Made by a program: the position numbers and the translations under genes. The notes under the pieces were generated by a model, which was given only the letters and a program-made list of their open reading frames with translations, did not search any database and was not told the origin of the DNA. This document shows positions 4,954 through 20,247 of a DNA stretch of 20,247 bases, one piece after another. The DNA is from a virus. The stretch spans positions 1-20,247 of the IMG/VR virus record IMGVR_UViG_3300043448_000123; one strand, 5' to 3'. Positions within the stretch are counted from its first letter, which is position 1. The number at the start of each line of letters is the position of its first letter.

Positions 4954-5165
4954 TATTTGGCCATCCAAACCCTAGGATCAGTACCGGCACAACCTTCACA
5001 CCAATCAATGACTTCAGAAGCAAATTTCCATAATCTTGTTTTATTATCACTTTGAATTAAAAAACCATGATTGTTACAAATTAAAGCGTACTTGCCGCCA
5101 TCTGTAACACAATCAGCATAATCAAGAATTACTGTTGTATTGCTTACATTTTTTGCTTTTAACAT
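4953..5165 (-). CDS. Small metal-binding-type protein, 70 residues
   Basis: The protein shows GGKYALICNNHGFLIQSDNK (C30 and H33, spaced CxxH), then a helix containing RLWKFASEVIDWCEGC with C56 and C59. Together these form a plausible C-x2-H / C-x2-C zinc site. Proteins with this G-K-W/Y-x3-C-x2-H ... WCExC pattern recur as uncharacterised ORFs in actinobacteria and their phages. It is the first gene of the early-type string after the 96-bp intergenic region and has a very strong SD (GGAAGGGG, five bases from the ATG), suggesting high expression. Confidence 0.68.
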   Translation of the reverse strand: MLKAKNVSNTTVILDYADCVTDGGKYALICNNHGFLIQSDNKTRLWKFASEVIDWCEGCAGTDPRVWMAK

Positions 5166-13615: not shown

Positions 13616-14030
13616 TTTCGCCTAACTGTTGCCTTCTTGTTGTTGTAATACTTTTCTTGCAAGATGGCTTTGATCGCTGAGTAAATCGCTGGATCAACCT
13701 CTAATAAATCTTTAGGGCTAATACCTGTTGCCACCGACACGGTAGCGACTTCATAAATTGATCCGTGTCGGTCTATCCATTTTTTGAATCATAAATCAAA
13801 TCAACATCTGAGTATTGATTAATGTAATCATCACCAAAGGCTAGATCTGTTTTACCTGCATCTTTTTCTAATCTCCAGGCAAACCACCACAAATCAGATT
13901 CCATTTGTAGTTCGCCTAATCTCTTACGCCAGCCGGTCTTAAATTCGGCTTCAAATGCCACCTTAGCGGACGGCGTAAGATCATAGGTTACTTTCTTACC
14001 ATCTTTTTTAACAATTTCAATTTTGTGCAT
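13612..14030 (-). CDS. Tail assembly chaperone G-T fusion made by -1 ribosomal frameshift
   Basis: This is the frameshifted product of the chaperone gene. The zero frame (14030 to 13779) slips back one base on A AAA AAT and continues from 13779 to a TGA at 13612, adding 55 residues to 84. The extension begins WIDRHGSIYEVATVSVATGI, goes on SPKDLLEVDPAIYSAIKAIL and ends basic (NNKKATVRRK). 'SPxDLLExDPxIYxAI' is a recurrent motif of gpT-like C-terminal parts, which recruit the tape measure. The -1 frame has a TGA at 13789-13791 and the zero frame a TAG at 13773-13775, so the shift must occur in that 13-base window, exactly where the heptamer lies. The stop overlaps the next ATG. Confidence 0.85.
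13773..14030 (-). CDS. Tail assembly chaperone, short form (gpG-like)
   Basis: This is the unshifted 85-residue chaperone. It opens MHKIEIVKKDGKKVTYDLTP, then has FKTGWRKRLGELQMESDLWW and ends SDVDLIYDSKNG. Proteins of this type bind the tape measure and organise tail-tube polymerisation without entering the virion. It sits between tail tube and tape measure, as usual, and has an AAGGTGG SD. The last codons contain the slippery site used for the longer fusion form. Confidence 0.86.
   Translation of the reverse strand: MHKIEIVKKDGKKVTYDLTPSAKVAFEAEFKTGWRKRLGELQMESDLWWFAWRLEKDAGKTDLAFGDDYINQYSDVDLIYDSKNG
13779..13785 (-). promoter_or_regulatory. Slippery heptamer A AAA AAT (-1 frameshift signal)
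   Basis: On the minus strand the zero-frame codons are TCA AAA AAT GGA TAG. A-AAA-AAT fits the X-XXY-YYZ rule, so both tRNAs can re-pair after slipping back one base. It occurs two codons before the zero-frame stop and immediately after a stop in the -1 frame, the expected placement. I did not see an obvious strong stem just downstream; related GACCGACACGG (about 13772-13762) and GTGTCGGT (13740-13733) could pair through CCGACAC/GTGTCGG to stimulate the shift. Confidence 0.82.
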
Positions 14031-14048
14031 TGTCCCACCTTTTCTTTA

Positions 14049-14456
14049 TTACGCGCTTGTTGATTTTGTTAATGCTGTTACTGGTAGCGACACTGACACG
14101 CTTGCTACTGCATCAACAGCACCGTTAATTGGTGTCCATGATGAGATTAAGCATGACATTGTGTAACTAGGATTTGTTGCACTTACTGTTCCTGATACTG
14201 GTATTAACTTTATATTAAGTTTTGTACCTAGTGCATCTTCAAACAGTGCGTTTACTGATGCGGCGGCAAAGTCATTGAACAGTTCCAAATTTAATGTCGG
14301 CCTTTCAATTCCACCGATCATATTCTGGACGGTATCGGTCATTGTAGAAATTTCTACCTGATCAACTTCGCGTGCAAGGCTGACGGTGCTGACATGATCG
14401 CTGATAGTTGTAGTACCTACAATCACGGCAACTTTGTTACCCATAAATATGGCCAT
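14049..14456 (-). CDS. Major tail tube protein
   Basis: The 135-residue protein begins MAIFMGNKVAVIVGTTTISD, followed by STVSLAREVDQVEISTMTDT, VQNMIGGIERPTLNLELFND and a beta-rich C-terminus. This two-strand-plus-helix pattern (short immunoglobulin-like tail tube fold with a SWTPxNG-like loop near the end) is typical of actinobacteriophage tail tube proteins. Hexamers stack into the tube around the tape measure. Neighbours (terminator upstream, chaperone downstream) fit exactly. The SD AGAGG is six bases ahead of the ATG, and the gene is likely among the most highly expressed. Confidence 0.82.
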   Translation of the reverse strand: MAIFMGNKVAVIVGTTTISDHVSTVSLAREVDQVEISTMTDTVQNMIGGIERPTLNLELFNDFAAASVNALFEDALGTKLNIKLIPVSGTVSATNPSYTMSCLISSWTPINGAVDAVASVSVSLPVTALTKSTSA

Positions 14457-14471
14457 ATTTTTCCTCTCTTA

Positions 14472-14882
14472 CTAACCTATCAACTCTACTGAATATTGAT
14501 AACTTAGGTAATCAATATTAGCGGATGTTATTGTTCCAGGGGATGCAGACACAACCCTCAGAGTTTGTACAGCACCGCTTAAAGTTTTATCAGCCTCAAT
14601 CGCGGATTTAATTGAAGTTGAACCGGATGAAGCAAGTAGCCCATCCAATCTTTCTTGCCCATTTCTTTCACTCATTCTGCCAACTACAACAATTACCTGA
14701 CATGTTGCAGAATCAAATCCTCTATTTAATGTAAAGTCATAATTCATTGATAACTGGCCAACTATTGCAAAAGCATTGTTGGTAGGTATGTTTGTAGAGT
14801 CAGGCACATAATCAAAAACACGCAATCCGGAGATAGTCTGTAATGCGGTTTTTAGATTATCTCTAACGGTGCTAGGAATCAT
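14472..14882 (-). CDS. Tail terminator / head-tail completion-like protein
   Basis: The 136-residue protein lies between the connector and the tail tube gene, where siphoviruses encode the tail terminator. It starts STVRDNLKTALQTISGLRVF, has a central YDFTLNRGFDSATCQVIVVV segment and ends SANIDYLSYQYSVELIG. The alternation of helix, strands and a final strand matches the lambda gpU / HK97 gp10-terminator type of fold, but sequence signatures in this family are weak. The ATG overlaps the stop of the connector gene (ATGA). Confidence 0.62.
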   Translation of the reverse strand: MIPSTVRDNLKTALQTISGLRVFDYVPDSTNIPTNNAFAIVGQLSMNYDFTLNRGFDSATCQVIVVVGRMSERNGQERLDGLLASSGSTSIKSAIEADKTLSGAVQTLRVVSASPGTITSANIDYLSYQYSVELIG

Positions 14883-15502
14883 GCAATTACTTCTTTTTTG
14901 TACGCTCTGACCATAGCAGTTATATCTCTGCCCACTGGTGACATTCTTACAACGCCTAGATCACCTAATCCTAGTATTCCACCTGGCGCATCTTTACGCT
15001 TGTATAAATCGGCGGTCAATATTAAGCAAGCCATATTTATATCACTAGGCACTGACGGCCAACCCCATTTTGCAGTTACCTGAACACCTGGTCTTAATCC
15101 ATTTTGTGTAATACCTGGAAATATTGGCCAGGTTTCAGTATTAGATACCATTGTTAATTGTGTATATGGTCTGCCTAAAGATGGTGCAGTTAATGGATCT
15201 AAAATATAATCTGTATTCAAAGTTAAACTTTTTGTGTATGTACCATTACCGTTTTCATCTACTGCAACGGCTAAGTTTGTTGTAGATCCAATGTCATCTA
15301 CATAAACAAAAATATCTGAGTAGGCACGGTAAAGCCGCGCTGATGCATTGGTATCTAAATAAAATCTACGGTTAGCAATCCGATCAATAGATCTTGATGC
15401 TGATTCAACTAAATCTTCTAACAGGTCATTATCAGTATTATCTGATATAGACATGTAATTCTTAATCTCAGTTAATGTTGCATATCCATTTGTTATAGCC
15501 AT
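14879..15502 (-). CDS. Head-tail connector protein (gp6-like)
   Basis: The 207-residue protein opens MAITNGYATLTEIKNYMSIS, followed by DNDLLEDLVESASRSIDRIA and NRRFYLD, the hallmark of gp6-type head-tail adaptors that bind below the portal. A later CLILTADLYKRKDAPGGILG segment is also typical. A frame extending to a TTG at 15544 exists, but that TTG is one base after GGAG, and relatives start with MAITNGY, so ATG 15502 is chosen. This ATG and its weak GGA SD are buried in a 16-bp RNA stem, and a 14-codon leader ORF ends just inside the gene, suggesting that its translation depends on upstream ribosomes. Confidence 0.82.
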   Translation of the reverse strand: MAITNGYATLTEIKNYMSISDNTDNDLLEDLVESASRSIDRIANRRFYLDTNASARLYRAYSDIFVYVDDIGSTTNLAVAVDENGNGTYTKSLTLNTDYILDPLTAPSLGRPYTQLTMVSNTETWPIFPGITQNGLRPGVQVTAKWGWPSVPSDINMACLILTADLYKRKDAPGGILGLGDLGVVRMSPVGRDITAMVRAYKKEVIA

Positions 15503-15537
15503 GATCGGTATCCAAATTCTGTATTGCCCTGGGACAT
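15493..15537 (-). CDS. 14-residue leader peptide ORF ahead of the connector gene
   Basis: An ATG at 15537, eight bases after a good GGAG SD, opens MSQGNTEFGYRSWL and stops at TAA (15495-15493), seven bases beyond the start of the connector ATG in a different frame. Its ribosome would pass through the 3' arm of the hairpin and unfold it. The peptide itself may be irrelevant. The SD strength relative to the connector start is the main evidence that it is translated. Confidence 0.45.
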   Translation of the reverse strand: MSQGNTEFGYRSWL

Positions 15538-15569
15538 TAGACAAACTCCATTCTTTAGATACCGATCAT
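15501..15569 (-). promoter_or_regulatory. 16-bp RNA hairpin sequestering the connector start codon
   Basis: On the transcript, 15569-15554 (AUGAUCGGUAUCUAAA) pairs with 15516-15501 (UUUGGAUACCGAUCAU): 15 Watson-Crick pairs and one U-G pair, enclosing a 37-base loop. The 3' arm includes the GGA SD and the A and U of the connector ATG (15502). The loop exposes GGAG and the leader ATG. Such a long near-perfect stem across a start codon is unlikely by chance and fits translation-coupled control of the capsid-to-connector ratio. Confidence 0.62.
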
Positions 15570-15577
15570 AGTTAGAA

Positions 15578-15606
15578 TCCAGGCGGCGGAAGGGTGGCCG
15601 CCTGGA
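15578..15606. terminator. GC-rich hairpin just after the major capsid gene
   Basis: TCCAGGCGGC and GCCGCCTGGA form a perfect 10-bp stem with a 9-base loop, 11 bases beyond the capsid stop at 15618. No clear T-run follows on the minus strand (next bases TTCTAACTATG), so it is not a standard intrinsic terminator. It could be a leaky terminator or a 3'-end barrier that protects the abundant capsid message from exonucleases. Confidence 0.5.
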
Positions 15607-15617
15607 AACTTATTTCA

Positions 15618-16976
15618 TTAGAAGGATGGCGCGGCCAAACCTGTTCCGTTAATTTGTGCAATTGCACCTGGATAACGCTCACCTGTAAAGGCTGACATTC
15701 CAAACAAAACGATATTCAGCGCGACCTTTCCGCTTGGTTCTTCAAAAGTCACGTATGTTGGCGCGGCGGCTTCTTCCCATAGGTGACATTCATTTAGATC
15801 CACAACAAAGATTGTGTCTTGATTTGTACTTGCACCTTTGTTGGTAGCAATGTTGGCATCAACAATGATAGGCAATCCTAGAATTGAGTAACCTGAGTTA
15901 CCGTATGTAGGTGTGCCATTACCTGTACCCATTGAGTTCATAGGGTTGTATGCCTGTGGCACAATCAACGGCCTATTTGAACTATCAACGCCTGCTAATA
16001 GGAATCCTAAGCGGCGTGGGTGCATGATCACTGCATTTGGGTTAGCAAAAACAGTTGATTGGATCTGTTGAATTGCATCTGCAATCTTTGGATATAGACC
16101 TGCAACTGTTCCGGTTGTCGCTGTATAAGTAACAAGGATTCCAGTTGTCATGTTCACAAGTCCTAATGGTTGTCCATTTGAACCTGATCCATTAAGTAGT
16201 GAGTTATCCAACTTAGTGTGATAATCACGGATCAAATCACCTAACACAATGTTTTCAATGTTGTATCCGCGTAGTAATGCTTGCTTAGATACTGATTGCT
16301 GACCAGCAATGGTATTTACATTGACGGTTAGTGTTGTGTCTGCAATATCTTGTGATACTGCGGCGGTGTTTTGTGATGTTTGGTAAGCGGTAATAGTTCC
16401 AGTGTTAATTTTAGAAATTACTACTGACATACCTTGTGTAGGTAATTGATGCTTGCGTGCGGCATCCGCGAATGGGCGGCCGGCGCGTGCTAATGGTGCA
16501 TATAGATCAACTAGGTATTGTGGCACTACTAAGCCTGCAAAGTTAGATGTTCCAACTGCACGCTTCTCAATTGCCATTTCCTGTTGGTGTCTTGCTATGC
16601 GTTGTGCGGCATCTGCATCAGTTTTGAAGTTTGCCTTTAACGCATCAGTTAAGAAATCATTTCCTGATCTCTCAGAATAAGTTAGTTCTTCGCGTGTAAC
16701 AGTAAAGCCACCTGCACGAACTTCCTTCTTTGGTTCAACATTCGCATCAACTTTAGCGGCTAAATCAGCGGCCTTTTGATTGCGGATCTCAATATCGGAC
16801 ATCTGCTCAATTCTTTCATCCAACTTTTTGATCTCTAGGTTTAGGGCTTCTACATTAGCCAACTCAACCTCTGATAGATCGCGTGCTTCTTCTGCGGCAC
16901 GATCTAAAGTTGCCTGAATAAGAGATGTCTTTGATTCGCGCTTCTCACGGAGAGAAGCAAGAAAAGTATTAGACAT
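15618..16976 (-). CDS. Major capsid protein, HK97 fold
   Basis: The 452-residue protein has the two-part design of HK97-type capsid proteins. A charged coiled-coil delta domain (about residues 1-75, EVELANVEALNLEIKKLDER) acts as internal scaffold and is removed by the prohead protease. The mature part starts somewhere after the linker near residue 85-110. The capsid domain shows FAGLVVPQYLVDLYAPLARA, AGRPFADAARKH, NSLLNGSGSNGQPLGLVN (E-loop/A-domain signature), VIMHPRRLGFLL and a C-terminal YVTFEEPSGKVALNIVLFG. The SD GGAG is five bases upstream. It lies after protease and portal, as in the canonical head module. No separate scaffold gene is seen, consistent with the fused delta domain. Confidence 0.94.
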   Translation of the reverse strand: MSNTFLASLREKRESKTSLIQATLDRAAEEARDLSEVELANVEALNLEIKKLDERIEQMSDIEIRNQKAADLAAKVDANVEPKKEVRAGGFTVTREELTYSERSGNDFLTDALKANFKTDADAAQRIARHQQEMAIEKRAVGTSNFAGLVVPQYLVDLYAPLARAGRPFADAARKHQLPTQGMSVVISKINTGTITAYQTSQNTAAVSQDIADTTLTVNVNTIAGQQSVSKQALLRGYNIENIVLGDLIRDYHTKLDNSLLNGSGSNGQPLGLVNMTTGILVTYTATTGTVAGLYPKIADAIQQIQSTVFANPNAVIMHPRRLGFLLAGVDSSNRPLIVPQAYNPMNSMGTGNGTPTYGNSGYSILGLPIIVDANIATNKGASTNQDTIFVVDLNECHLWEEAAAPTYVTFEEPSGKVALNIVLFGMSAFTGERYPGAIAQINGTGLAAPSF

Positions 16977-17057
16977 TTTTCTCCAATTTGTTAGTTGTTT
17001 AGTGAGAAGGTGTAACGCGCCGGTAATCGGGGTTAGGTGTTCTACGACTTGTCAAAA

Positions 17058-17588
17058 TTATATCTCTTTTTTCAAATCTTTTAGTATTTGTAAGGCAGTG
17101 TTAAATCTTGTTTTATCATCAGATCTATTTTGGTTTGCAATTTTCTCTGACCATGATTTACCAGCATCTCCACCCCACAATGCCCAGGCAATGCGACCAT
17201 TAGAAGGATAACCATCTTCACCTGGGCTAAAGCCTTCAGCCTTTTTATCTACTTCATGGCGTGCAAAAAAAGATACCATTCGGTTCACTGTATCTAAAGA
17301 TAAACTTTTACCATTGACAATATCTCTAGCCCTGGCAATGCCAACCTCTGTACCACCGCGACCAAATTCACTGCGCCAATCTAAACCTTTTTGCGCTTCT
17401 GATTTCATGCCGGCAGTAGGTTCATAACCTTCTGCTCTACTCTCACCATATTCTGCAATGTTAATGGCAGTTAGTTGATCTTCTGCCTGCGCCTGAGTTT
17501 TATGGCAACCAATTAACTCATTAGTATCAGATTTAACTACTGCATACCCTTCACACTCAGGATGATTACTTACTACGCTGTATGGCAT
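17058..17588 (-). CDS. Head-module protein of unknown function, two conserved segments
   Basis: The 176 residues fall into two parts. The first, YSVVSNHPECEGYAVVKSDT through KTQAQAEDQLTAINIAEYGE, is a short alpha/beta unit often seen as an add-on in phage head proteins. The second begins GLDWRSEFGRGGTEVGIARA, continues VNRMVSFFARHEVDKKAEGF and ends GRIAWALWGGDAGKSWSEKI. That signature recurs in phage head regions, alone or fused to protease or portal-linked proteins, with no function I can name. It starts inside the protease gene with a 23-base overlap and an AAGGAAG SD, so it is likely made together with the protease. It may aid capsid assembly or maturation. Confidence 0.7.
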   Translation of the reverse strand: MPYSVVSNHPECEGYAVVKSDTNELIGCHKTQAQAEDQLTAINIAEYGESRAEGYEPTAGMKSEAQKGLDWRSEFGRGGTEVGIARARDIVNGKSLSLDTVNRMVSFFARHEVDKKAEGFSPGEDGYPSNGRIAWALWGGDAGKSWSEKIANQNRSDDKTRFNTALQILKDLKKEI

Positions 17589-18123
17589 CTAAGATCTTCC
17601 TTGCTTCATCTAATCTAGGTGTTAATTGTGGTTGGCCTTCACGCATACCTGTAACACTAGCCATTTCACCATAAGCACCAAAAGTAACTAAAGATACTTC
17701 TGCCAAATGTGCCTTAATTCTTTCCATAACACCATCAGGCCTTTTACGATTTTTAATTGGCATAAATCCAACTGATAATTGATCTAATGCGCCATCTTTA
17801 ACTAACTCTAATGCTTCATCACCTTCGCGGGTTTTTGAAATCTTAAATTCAGCGTAAAGGCCTTCATCAGTTTCCCTTAGCAATGTGGCACGGCCTAATA
17901 CATTGTTTTCACCATGACCCCTAAGAAGTTTTACCCGGTGTGGTGCTTTAATAACTTCTGCAAAAACACCTTTTCTAAATACTTCAATCATTGTGCTAGT
18001 GATGCGTTGTTCCTTGTTGTAAGGCACGGCAATACCAAAGATGGTGCGACCATCACCATTGGCACGCAACTCCAAATCAACTGAGTAACTTCTATTTTCT
18101 ATTTTTTCTTCAGACATAGTCAT
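17566..18123 (-). CDS. Prohead protease, HK97 family (S78-type)
   Basis: The 185-residue protease begins RSYSVDLELRANGDGRTIFG and FGIAVPYN, has VKLLRGHGENNVLGRA with catalytic-type H70, then DGALDQLSVGFMPI with S117 and HLAEVSLVTFGAYGEM. These are the conserved strands and the His/Ser pair of the herpesvirus-like prohead proteases that cut the capsid delta domain and themselves. It sits between portal and capsid as in HK97. It overlaps the portal gene by 14 bases. Two in-frame ATGs (18123 and 18117) share the GAGG SD; either could start it. Confidence 0.9.
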   Translation of the reverse strand: MTMSEEKIENRSYSVDLELRANGDGRTIFGIAVPYNKEQRITSTMIEVFRKGVFAEVIKAPHRVKLLRGHGENNVLGRATLLRETDEGLYAEFKISKTREGDEALELVKDGALDQLSVGFMPIKNRKRPDGVMERIKAHLAEVSLVTFGAYGEMASVTGMREGQPQLTPRLDEARKILDAIQRSK

Positions 18124-19300
18124 TATCCTCTACTGTATCAACCACATCACTTTGTAATGATTCATCTTCGGCTTCTTCACCAATTTCATCATCTTCGTGA
18201 TCCATAGGATCAAGATTTTCATAATCTCTTACTTCATCCACTGTTAAGAAGCCATTAGATAATGCAACTGCATAAGCATCATATCTACTTGCAGTATCGG
18301 TCTTTAACAATGAATCATACTTAAATGCGGCTGTTTGACCCCGGACAAGTAAATCAGAAAATGCCGCTTCTATTCTTTCTGCGATTGGTTGTATTGACCA
18401 TTTAATCAATTGTAAATTTTCTTGTTCAACATTTGAATAGGTACGGCTAGAATTTGGTGATCCTAAGAAGTATGGTGGCAATCCTAAAATGTTTGCCGCT
18501 TCTGTAAGTCCGGCTGTTTGCGCTTCTACTAATTGAGATTCTGCCGCATTGCTACTTAACACTTCAAAATCTGTTGATGCGTTCATAACAACAGGGGATC
18601 TATTGCGTGATGAGTACATTGCCATCCATGCAGTTTTTAGCGCATCCGCTTCTTCCTGAGTTAGATCCGGATTAGCAGATTTAATTACTGCGGTTGGATT
18701 AACACCGCCATCAAAGTATCTTGATGCGTACTCATTGATTGCAATCTCTTTACCCAATGCTTGTTTAGCAACTGCCAAAATACCTTTACCAACTAAATCA
18801 CCTGGCATTGTAAAATTTTTAATGTGCATAATTTCTGATTGATCATATACACGCTCATCAATGCGATAAATGATTCTGCCTTTTTCTCTTGTAACTTGTA
18901 CGCGATCAGGCGCAACAGGATAGATGCTGTCAGGTAATCCATTAGCACCTGGTTCACCTAATACTGCAACATAGTTACCGTGAATAATTAACGCGGCCGC
19001 CATTGCACTAATTGTTTCCATTCGGGTTTCAGTAGGAACTGGCCGCATTAAAATTTGTGGTGTTGGTATTACTTCACGCTTGTTACGATATGCACACAAA
19101 GGCAATGCACCAATAGCATCACTAATTAAAGTGATACCGCGATAGATTGCAGGTATGCCTAAAGCGGTGTTTTGATCTACATAAGCACCTGCCCAATTAC
19201 CTTCAAAGAATCTACCAACACGGCCTAAAGAATCTACATAGCCTTGTGATGTATAAACTAAAGATGGCTGGATCTGTCTTTTCAGTAATCGGCCTAGCAT
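18110..19300 (-). CDS. Portal protein, HK97 family
   Basis: This 396-residue protein forms the dodecameric DNA channel at one capsid vertex. Family signatures are ALGIPAIYRGITLISDAIGA near the start, LIIHGNYVAVLGEP, SEIMHIKNFTMPG, GVNPTAVIKS and the clip/stem region LTEAANILGLPPYFLGSPNS followed by YSNVEQENLQLIKWSIQPIA. The C-terminus is an unusual run of acidic residues (DPMDHEDDEIGEEAEDE), likely disordered inside the capsid. It starts at the stop codon of the 48-residue membrane protein (TAATG) with AGAGG six bases upstream. Length and gene order are normal for the family. Confidence 0.93.
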   Translation of the reverse strand: MLGRLLKRQIQPSLVYTSQGYVDSLGRVGRFFEGNWAGAYVDQNTALGIPAIYRGITLISDAIGALPLCAYRNKREVIPTPQILMRPVPTETRMETISAMAAALIIHGNYVAVLGEPGANGLPDSIYPVAPDRVQVTREKGRIIYRIDERVYDQSEIMHIKNFTMPGDLVGKGILAVAKQALGKEIAINEYASRYFDGGVNPTAVIKSANPDLTQEEADALKTAWMAMYSSRNRSPVVMNASTDFEVLSSNAAESQLVEAQTAGLTEAANILGLPPYFLGSPNSSRTYSNVEQENLQLIKWSIQPIAERIEAAFSDLLVRGQTAAFKYDSLLKTDTASRYDAYAVALSNGFLTVDEVRDYENLDPMDHEDDEIGEEAEDESLQSDVVDTVEDNDYV

Positions 19301-19446: not shown

Positions 19447-20247
19447 TAGTAAATCTTACTCCTTGCCACTGGCTGATCTTCTATTTTTGTTACCACTCCA
19501 TACCGTGCCAGTGTAGCCGCTACCAGTGGTGTTATGTTAGTTGTGCTTTGACGATTCCATGCCCAGGAATCACCCAATGGCCGTTTAGTAGATCCCATAA
19601 TTGCAGTTCTTAAATTAGGATCATCTAAGTGGCTTATAGTTTTTGCTTGTACTGCATCATAAAAAGAACCACATGCCCTGGCGTAATCACGCAAGTGAAT
19701 AGACATAACGCCAATGTTTTGTTTTTCTAACTCAACTATTAAAGAAGCCGCCGGTGATCCTGTATCAATAACCACCTTTGTGTTGTACTTTTTGCATAGT
19801 TCTACTAATCGTGGCAAAACCCAGGATGTACCCTCTTTACACTCAATCAATTCAATAGGCGTAAAATCTCTAACTAAACCGGATGCGGCTATTGAAGCAC
19901 GGTCACGCTCACGCGATATATCTACACCAAATACAATCTTATTGCCAACTGTAATATCTGTTCTAGCCAAAGAATCCCAAAGTTCAGTATTGATAACTTG
20001 CACTGCATCCCTAGATGGCCAAACATTCAGCCATTCCTTTGTAAAAATATCCGGGCTATTAGTTGCCGCCGCTTCACGCACTGCATCTATCAACACGCCT
20101 TTTTCTTCATGCAATGATGGTATAGCCTGATACCAAACTTGTTCATCTAAATAATCAAATTCATCTAATGATGGACACCATTCAAACCAGGCTAGTTTGT
20201 TTTGTGGTTCTGCAATCTCTCTATGGCCAATCTCTCTGTAATGCTCT
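19446..20247 (-). CDS. terL: Terminase large subunit, C-terminal part (cut by window edge)
   Basis: The open frame runs off the right edge; 266 residues are visible. The early visible part (LAWFEWCPSLDEFDYLDEQV and WYQAIPSL) is the end of the ATPase half or the linker. The nuclease domain follows: FGVDISRERDRASIAASG supplies the first acidic residue of the RNase-H-like site, TKVVIDTGSPAASLIVELEK the second, and the segment RPLGDSWAWNRQSTTNITPL then VAATLARYG is the typical end of the domain. The enzyme cuts concatemeric DNA and pumps it into proheads through the portal encoded two genes downstream. The ATPase Walker motifs lie outside the window. Confidence 0.92.
   Translation of the reverse strand, partial: EHYREIGHREIAEPQNKLAWFEWCPSLDEFDYLDEQVWYQAIPSLHEEKGVLIDAVREAAATNSPDIFTKEWLNVWPSRDAVQVINTELWDSLARTDITVGNKIVFGVDISRERDRASIAASGLVRDFTPIELIECKEGTSWVLPRLVELCKKYNTKVVIDTGSPAASLIVELEKQNIGVMSIHLRDYARACGSFYDAVQAKTISHLDDPNLRTAIMGSTKRPLGDSWAWNRQSTTNITPLVAATLARYGVVTKIEDQPVARSKIY

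Follow-up and report, generated by a model that had tools for sequence, protein, structure and literature searches.

The start of the head-tail connector gene in an uncultured tailed phage is enclosed in a long RNA hairpin, whose loop offers a ribosome entry site for a short leader ORF that ends just inside the connector gene. The stretch analysed, hereafter called the window, comprises 20,247 nucleotides of DNA (positions 1 to 20,247 of IMG/VR virus record IMGVR_UViG_3300043448_000123). Comparison with related phage sequences makes it quite likely that translation of this disposable leader cistron opens the hairpin, which we call the lock, and brings a ribosome to the start of the connector gene, a form of translational coupling. 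In tailed phages, adjacent genes yield hundreds of capsid subunits but only about a dozen connector subunits, a difference usually ascribed to promoter or RBS strength. Here, a specific RNA device is present at the capsid-connector boundary and is maintained by selection in phages whose leaders have little sequence in common.

Late operon and hairpins at the capsid-connector boundary

The late operon of the window is on the minus strand and contains, in this order, genes for the portal (18110-19300), the protease (17566-18123), a protein of unknown function (17058-17588, between the protease and capsid genes), the HK97-type major capsid protein (15618..16976; phrog_2263 major head protein, E=2e-44), the head-tail connector or adaptor (14879..15502; phrog_442 head-tail adaptor, E=1e-14), the tail terminator (14472..14882; phrog_17840, E=1.6e-22) and the major tail protein (14049-14456). 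The portal, protease and major tail protein were likewise assigned by PHROG matches, and the capsid protein is ~33-35% identical to mycobacteriophage capsid proteins. The connector gene, which is the locked cistron, starts at ATG 15502-15500, from which its homologues align. Because its stop codon overlaps the start of the tail terminator gene (ATGA), the two genes are possibly controlled together, which suggests that the lock may gate both of these low-copy neck genes. A perfect 10-bp hairpin (ACCGACACGG/CCGTGTCGGT; window 13733-13772, minus strand) is also present directly 3' of the ORF ending at 13773 and is possibly a terminator or another intergenic element.

Two hairpins, H1 and then H2, lie between the capsid stop and the connector ATG. 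H1 (15578..15606, minus strand) directly follows the capsid stop and has a covarying stem and an 8-base loop with ACCCTTCC in all 86 contexts checked; the loop carries ACCCUUCC. Similar CCTTCC or CCTTTCC loops are found in several distant clades and are absent in L540-L545. Elsewhere in the window, the complement of the H1 loop occurs once, as GGAAGGG ahead of the gene that starts at 5165, which is no more than expected by chance.

H2, the lock, extends over 15499-15571. Its 5' arm (CTATGATCGGTATCTAA; 15571-15555, minus strand) and 3' arm (TTGGATACCGATCATGG; 15515-15499, minus strand), both identified from the fold, the covariation and the inverted-repeat listing, give 17 pairs, two of which are U-G; the predicted fold has 18 pairs. 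The original prediction had placed the stem correctly but had described it as 16 bp with one U-G pair. It had also proposed that the stem hides the GGA SD and part of the connector ATG; the 3' arm does contain this SD (15513-15511), and it contains the entire ATG (15502-15500) rather than a part of it. The same arm encodes the C-terminal half of the leader.

The minimum-energy fold of 15480-15620, a stretch that takes in H1 as well as H2, has the two as separate hairpins and an energy of -55.8 kcal/mol (z = -6.4); none of 200 shuffles was as good in this comparison, which had been suggested together with the prediction. The 24-nt inverted repeat of H2 is the longest among the matches listed for the 6.7 kb examined, and in a search for locks in the 230 nt upstream of the connector start, the score of the window was reached by 0 of 200 shuffles. 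When accessibility was calculated by single-molecule folding at 37 C without ribosomes, the connector start region had a mean unpaired probability of 0.117, the lowest of the 29 window starts tested, and the leader start region had one of 0.608, among the five highest. No match to Rfam families was found in window 14000-17700 up to E = 5. We considered the possibility that H2 is a MIRU-like mobile repeat with a coupled ORF and rejected it, because the element is present in a single copy in the record of the window (itself a fragment) and because pattern matches outside connectors look like chance.

Covariation of the lock stem

Several hundred connector relatives were found in metagenomic phage contigs; because they were sampled by similarity and by patterns, the frequencies given here are not population estimates. 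Among 53 distinct sequences, 99.3% of the cells in the H2 stem are standard pairs, and 6 of the 17 pairs have changed on both sides. Double-change cells number 43 in this set, compared with 12.5 in shuffles, so that the compensatory changes for which the original prediction had proposed a search are indeed present. Sliding the arms by 1-3 bases reduces pairing to 23-47%. Either 16 or 17 of the 17 pairs are formed in every one of 89 distinct contexts, and the arms of L297 and L248 are quite different yet still paired. The central pair (pair 8) is C-G in some sequences and U-A in others, and mismatched intermediates were not seen; 11 changes of this pair were inferred on the connector-gene tree, which ignores recombination, a process that could inflate the count. 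U-G pairs are held at three stem positions in most sequences, which argues that the selected object is the RNA and disfavours a DNA palindrome serving as a protein target.

Mean accessibility over the 89 contexts is 0.12 for the connector start region and 0.57 for the leader, and the unpaired probability of the connector start codon is 0.00-0.01 in all lock-bearing representatives. At the level of sequence, these comparisons establish that selection maintains the pairing of this stem, in which an upstream arm is base-paired to the connector start codon and SD.

The leader ORF

The leader, read in the window and conserved in relatives, consists of 14 codons and a stop (MSQGNTEFGYRSWL*; 15493..15537, minus strand). 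It starts with ATG at 15537 and ends with TAA at 15495-15493, inside the connector gene, at bases 8-10 of that gene when the A of its ATG is base 1. Its SD, GGAG (15546..15549, minus strand), is located in the H2 loop 8 nt before the leader ATG. The sequence thus bears out the original description of a loop with GGAG and a 14-codon ORF whose stop lies just past the connector ATG, and the expected conservation of the leader start and stop was also found: start, SD and stop are all kept in 88 of the 89 distinct leader-bearing contexts. GGAG is present in all contexts except L248, which has GGAT, a GTG leader start and a leader shorter by exactly one codon. The stop occupies these same bases, 8-10 of the connector gene, in 88 of 89 contexts, and L146 alone has no leader stop at the usual place. 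The distance from the leader to the connector ATG is constant in all sequences but one, which differs by one codon. The segment before the leader start differs by one to three bases among relatives, and length is therefore fixed only from the leader start onward. The third codon of the connector gene is ATA in all 89 contexts and forms the leader stop in 88 of them; ATA accounts for 29% of the Ile codons of the window.

The leader peptide changes freely, and the residues encoded by the 3' arm follow the changes in the stem (R/Q/W, S/P/L, Y/D), although the pattern FG(Y/D)..W(L/R) recurs in main-clade leaders. The 41-codon leaders of L526 and L532 differ by 31 changes, of which 26 are non-synonymous (pN 0.27, pS 0.19); the leader frame has no stop or indel, and neither of the two other frames is free of stops in both leaders. 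Although the numbers are small, this pattern would be the signature expected if the act of translation, and not its product, matters. Together, these data demonstrate, as read from aligned sequences, that selection has kept the arms paired and the leader frame open and in its correct place. They also suggest that ORFs far under annotation cut-offs can be functional by being translated, without a conserved peptide.

Two further candidates in this region were rejected. A mini-ORF in the 5' arm (ATG ATC GGT ATC TAA) keeps neither its frame nor its stop among relatives. As for a programmed frameshift from the leader into the connector gene, the latter is in the -1 frame and no slippery heptamer was seen by eye.

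Recurrence of the layout in distant relatives

More distant phages were reached by pattern searches that excluded common codons and by a search with a relative of 69% identity. At 64-78% connector identity, the same layout is found with different arms and unrelated leaders of 16-41 codons, a recurrence that goes beyond what had been noticed originally. Distant-clade arms form 12-18 pairs, and the leader stop in other clades lies at -2 to +13 relative to the connector start. L536, L537 and L539 have CCATCAGCAGCTCT/AGAGCTGCTGATGG arms and a 23-codon leader ending in TGATG; L526, L530, L532 and L535 have CCATGATCAATCTTTTCG/CGAAAGGATTGATCATGG arms and a 41-codon leader; and L546 and L548 have CCATGATCGGCT/AGTCGATCATGG arms and a 16-codon leader. 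The arms are CCATCCAGGATCT/GGCTCCTGGATGG in L540-L542 (28-codon leader), TCATGAGCAGTC/GACTGCTCATGG in L543 (27-codon leader) and CCACAGATGACTTTTT/AAAGGGTCATCTGTGG in L545 (26-codon leader). In L545, the connector start is GTG and is paired with CCAC in the 5' arm; that is, the 5' arm has changed to match. The observed lock score was reached by 0 or 1 of 200 shuffles for most representatives and by 3 or 4 of 200 for L541 and L543. L557 and L560 have a clear lock and an ORF through the 3' arm without a clear SD, the start of which is uncertain (read by eye). Overall, leader lengths range from 13 to 41 codons across clades.

Proposed mechanism and alternative explanations

Two features expected of coupling by unfolding are present: the downstream start is hidden in RNA structure, and the upstream ORF traverses this structure and ends near the start. 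We infer that the connector start would be closed in the free mRNA and that the leader is translated. A ribosome would enter at the accessible GGAG in the H2 loop, unwind the 3' arm as it translates the leader and terminate on top of the connector start. Either reinitiation would then take place at the connector start, or the arm would be held open for another ribosome, and the leader peptide would be a probable by-product. The purpose may be one of stoichiometry: synthesis of the connector, and perhaps also of the tail terminator, would be a set fraction of leader translation, so that both low-copy neck proteins would stay far less abundant than the product of the preceding capsid gene. This link to the capsid protein is presumptive. 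The class of mechanism is established by the uORF-dependent expression of PPE2 (PMC11260477), by examples in a review (PMC12548453) and by designed elements (PMC11602170). Ribosome-recycling data in Escherichia coli argue against reinitiation as a general route (PMC7538156). Clades differ in the strength of the stem, in leader length (13-41 codons) and in where the stop lies, so that the lock-bearing phages provide a natural test of unfolding versus reinitiation.

The original prediction left two readings, coupling or attenuation, in both of which a leader ribosome opens the 3' arm. Coupling is supported by the present data, and stalling attenuation is disfavoured because the leader peptide is not conserved. 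Stalling leaders that open an RBS hairpin are a known class, exemplified by the ermB and ermC leaders, and the recurrent main-clade pattern could hint at a peptide that acts by itself, through signal-dependent stalling or as a functional microprotein. However, conserved stalling codons or a conserved peptide of the erm type were not found among these leaders; C-terminal residues follow the stem, the leaders of other clades are unrelated and differ widely in length, and in the longest leader pair non-synonymous change per site is at least as high as synonymous change. We therefore regard an active leader peptide as quite improbable. A processing switch also appears quite unlikely; here the leader would be secondary, and cleavage of the stem or loop by RNase III or a similar nuclease would detach the 5' arm and so expose the connector start. 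A nuclease could plausibly attack a stem of 17-18 bp placed directly behind the abundant capsid mRNA, and processing is what activates type I toxin mRNAs (PMC11228461). Cleavage leaves unexplained, however, why the GGAG, the initiation codon and the frame and stop of the leader are conserved, why an ATA codon forms this stop, and why leaders are present within unrelated arm sequences.

It is very unlikely that the leader ORF is incidental and the hairpin only a brake that lowers connector initiation. No other start tested in the window is less accessible than that of the connector, and a weak start would suit a low-copy protein; however, none of the 89 main-clade lock contexts lacks a reading frame through the lock, losses take both, and the upkeep of the leader signals would need another reason. 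The probability that the connector instead starts at TTG 15544, with the hairpin inside its coding sequence, is practically negligible. The frame from this TTG is open in the window, but the sequences of L022/L103, L034/L256 and L164 have an in-frame TAA, the lengths of indels preceding the leader start are not divisible by three, and homologues, including distant ones, align from the ATG or from a GTG at the same place. A conserved extension through TTG 15544, which the original prediction had named as evidence against itself, was thus not found.

Relation to known systems and probable hosts

The closest parallels to leader-dependent coupling come from bacterial, phage and engineered systems. 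Expression of PPE2 of Mycobacterium tuberculosis, also actinobacterial, needs a translated short upstream ORF that has its own SD and overlaps the downstream start, and it proceeds mainly by termination-reinitiation (PMC11260477). PPE2 is, however, a cellular gene with a riboswitch-controlled 5' leader and a 4-nt AUGA overlap (PMC11260477), whereas the present element is located between two phage late-operon genes and no known ligand domain was found in it. The intergenic small ORF mgtQ, between mgtC and mgtB of Salmonella, is similar in that its translation governs a stem-loop hiding the next RBS; it differs in using alternative stems and specific acidic codons (PMC8092293), while here there is one stem and the peptide sequence is seemingly irrelevant by comparison. 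In the phage f1 VII/IX and MS2/fr coat-lysis pairs, a start is likewise opened or reached by ribosomes from the preceding gene, but that upstream ORF is a functional phage gene (reviewed in PMC12548453) and not a dedicated leader of 13-41 codons without a conserved peptide. Bicistronic designs and synTCE share a short leader with its own SD, a second RBS inside the leader, a hairpin and a stop/start overlap; these are engineered (PMC11602170), whereas the present arrangement is natural and maintained by compensatory evolution. The erm-type translational attenuators also combine a leader peptide with a hairpin hiding the downstream RBS and depend on drug-induced stalling at specific codons, for which there is no such conservation here. 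No covarying lock with a dedicated leader at a phage capsid-connector boundary was found in the open-access literature, which is weak evidence of absence. The coupling principle itself is known; in that literature, no account of such an arrangement in a phage head-neck operon was found.

The window has no nucleotide match to isolated phages, and no connector relatives were found in cellular genomes. Connector relatives do include phages of Pontimonas and Rhodococcus, and the record holding relative L238 encodes a WhiB-family protein (G005 19828-20010). These relatives, the WhiB gene and the mycobacteriophage relatives of the capsid protein indicate that the hosts are probably actinobacteria. 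The lock-bearing phages form a large group of tailed phages that are uncultured and probably infect actinobacteria.

Relatives without the lock

Both the leader and the 3' arm are gone in L240 and L244 (near 1501 in each), whose connectors are 81-82% identical to that of the window. Their connector starts are more accessible, and the H1 loop is kept despite the lost lock. Remnants resembling the 5' arm remain, which suggests secondary loss, and the two are apparently natural unlocked variants. Since they do without the lock and leader, these are not essential.

At connector identities of ~62% and below, nearly all relatives are without the lock, as are L393 (66%) and the inspected relatives at 52-62%. 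In most of the inspected lockless relatives, the connector start is preceded at a few bases, or overlapped (TAATG), by the end of a gene of 62-100 codons, which is an ordinary coupling layout. This gene between capsid and connector encodes a lysine/arginine-rich C-terminus in L489, L499, L354, L458, L478, L480 and others. Relatives below ~50% mostly have their own open start, and the Pontimonas phage also has an open connector start of its own (read by eye). A tentative and rather doubtful scenario is that, in place of the 62-100 codon gene, which in more distant relatives would feed ribosomes to the connector start, the lock-bearing group has the key (the 13-41 codon leader) and lock, either through shrinkage of this gene or through its replacement, and that the nearly invariant H1 loop could let a phage protein tune the switch, for example through feedback of the capsid protein on neck synthesis. 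If true, the element would be widespread among phages, an RNA device in which a disposable key, kept only for translation, stands in for an entire former gene. In L363, perfect 15-bp arms surround a small gene upstream of the connector, with the ATG in the 5' arm and the stop in the 3' arm, and this arrangement may be an intermediate between the gene-coupled and leader-coupled forms.
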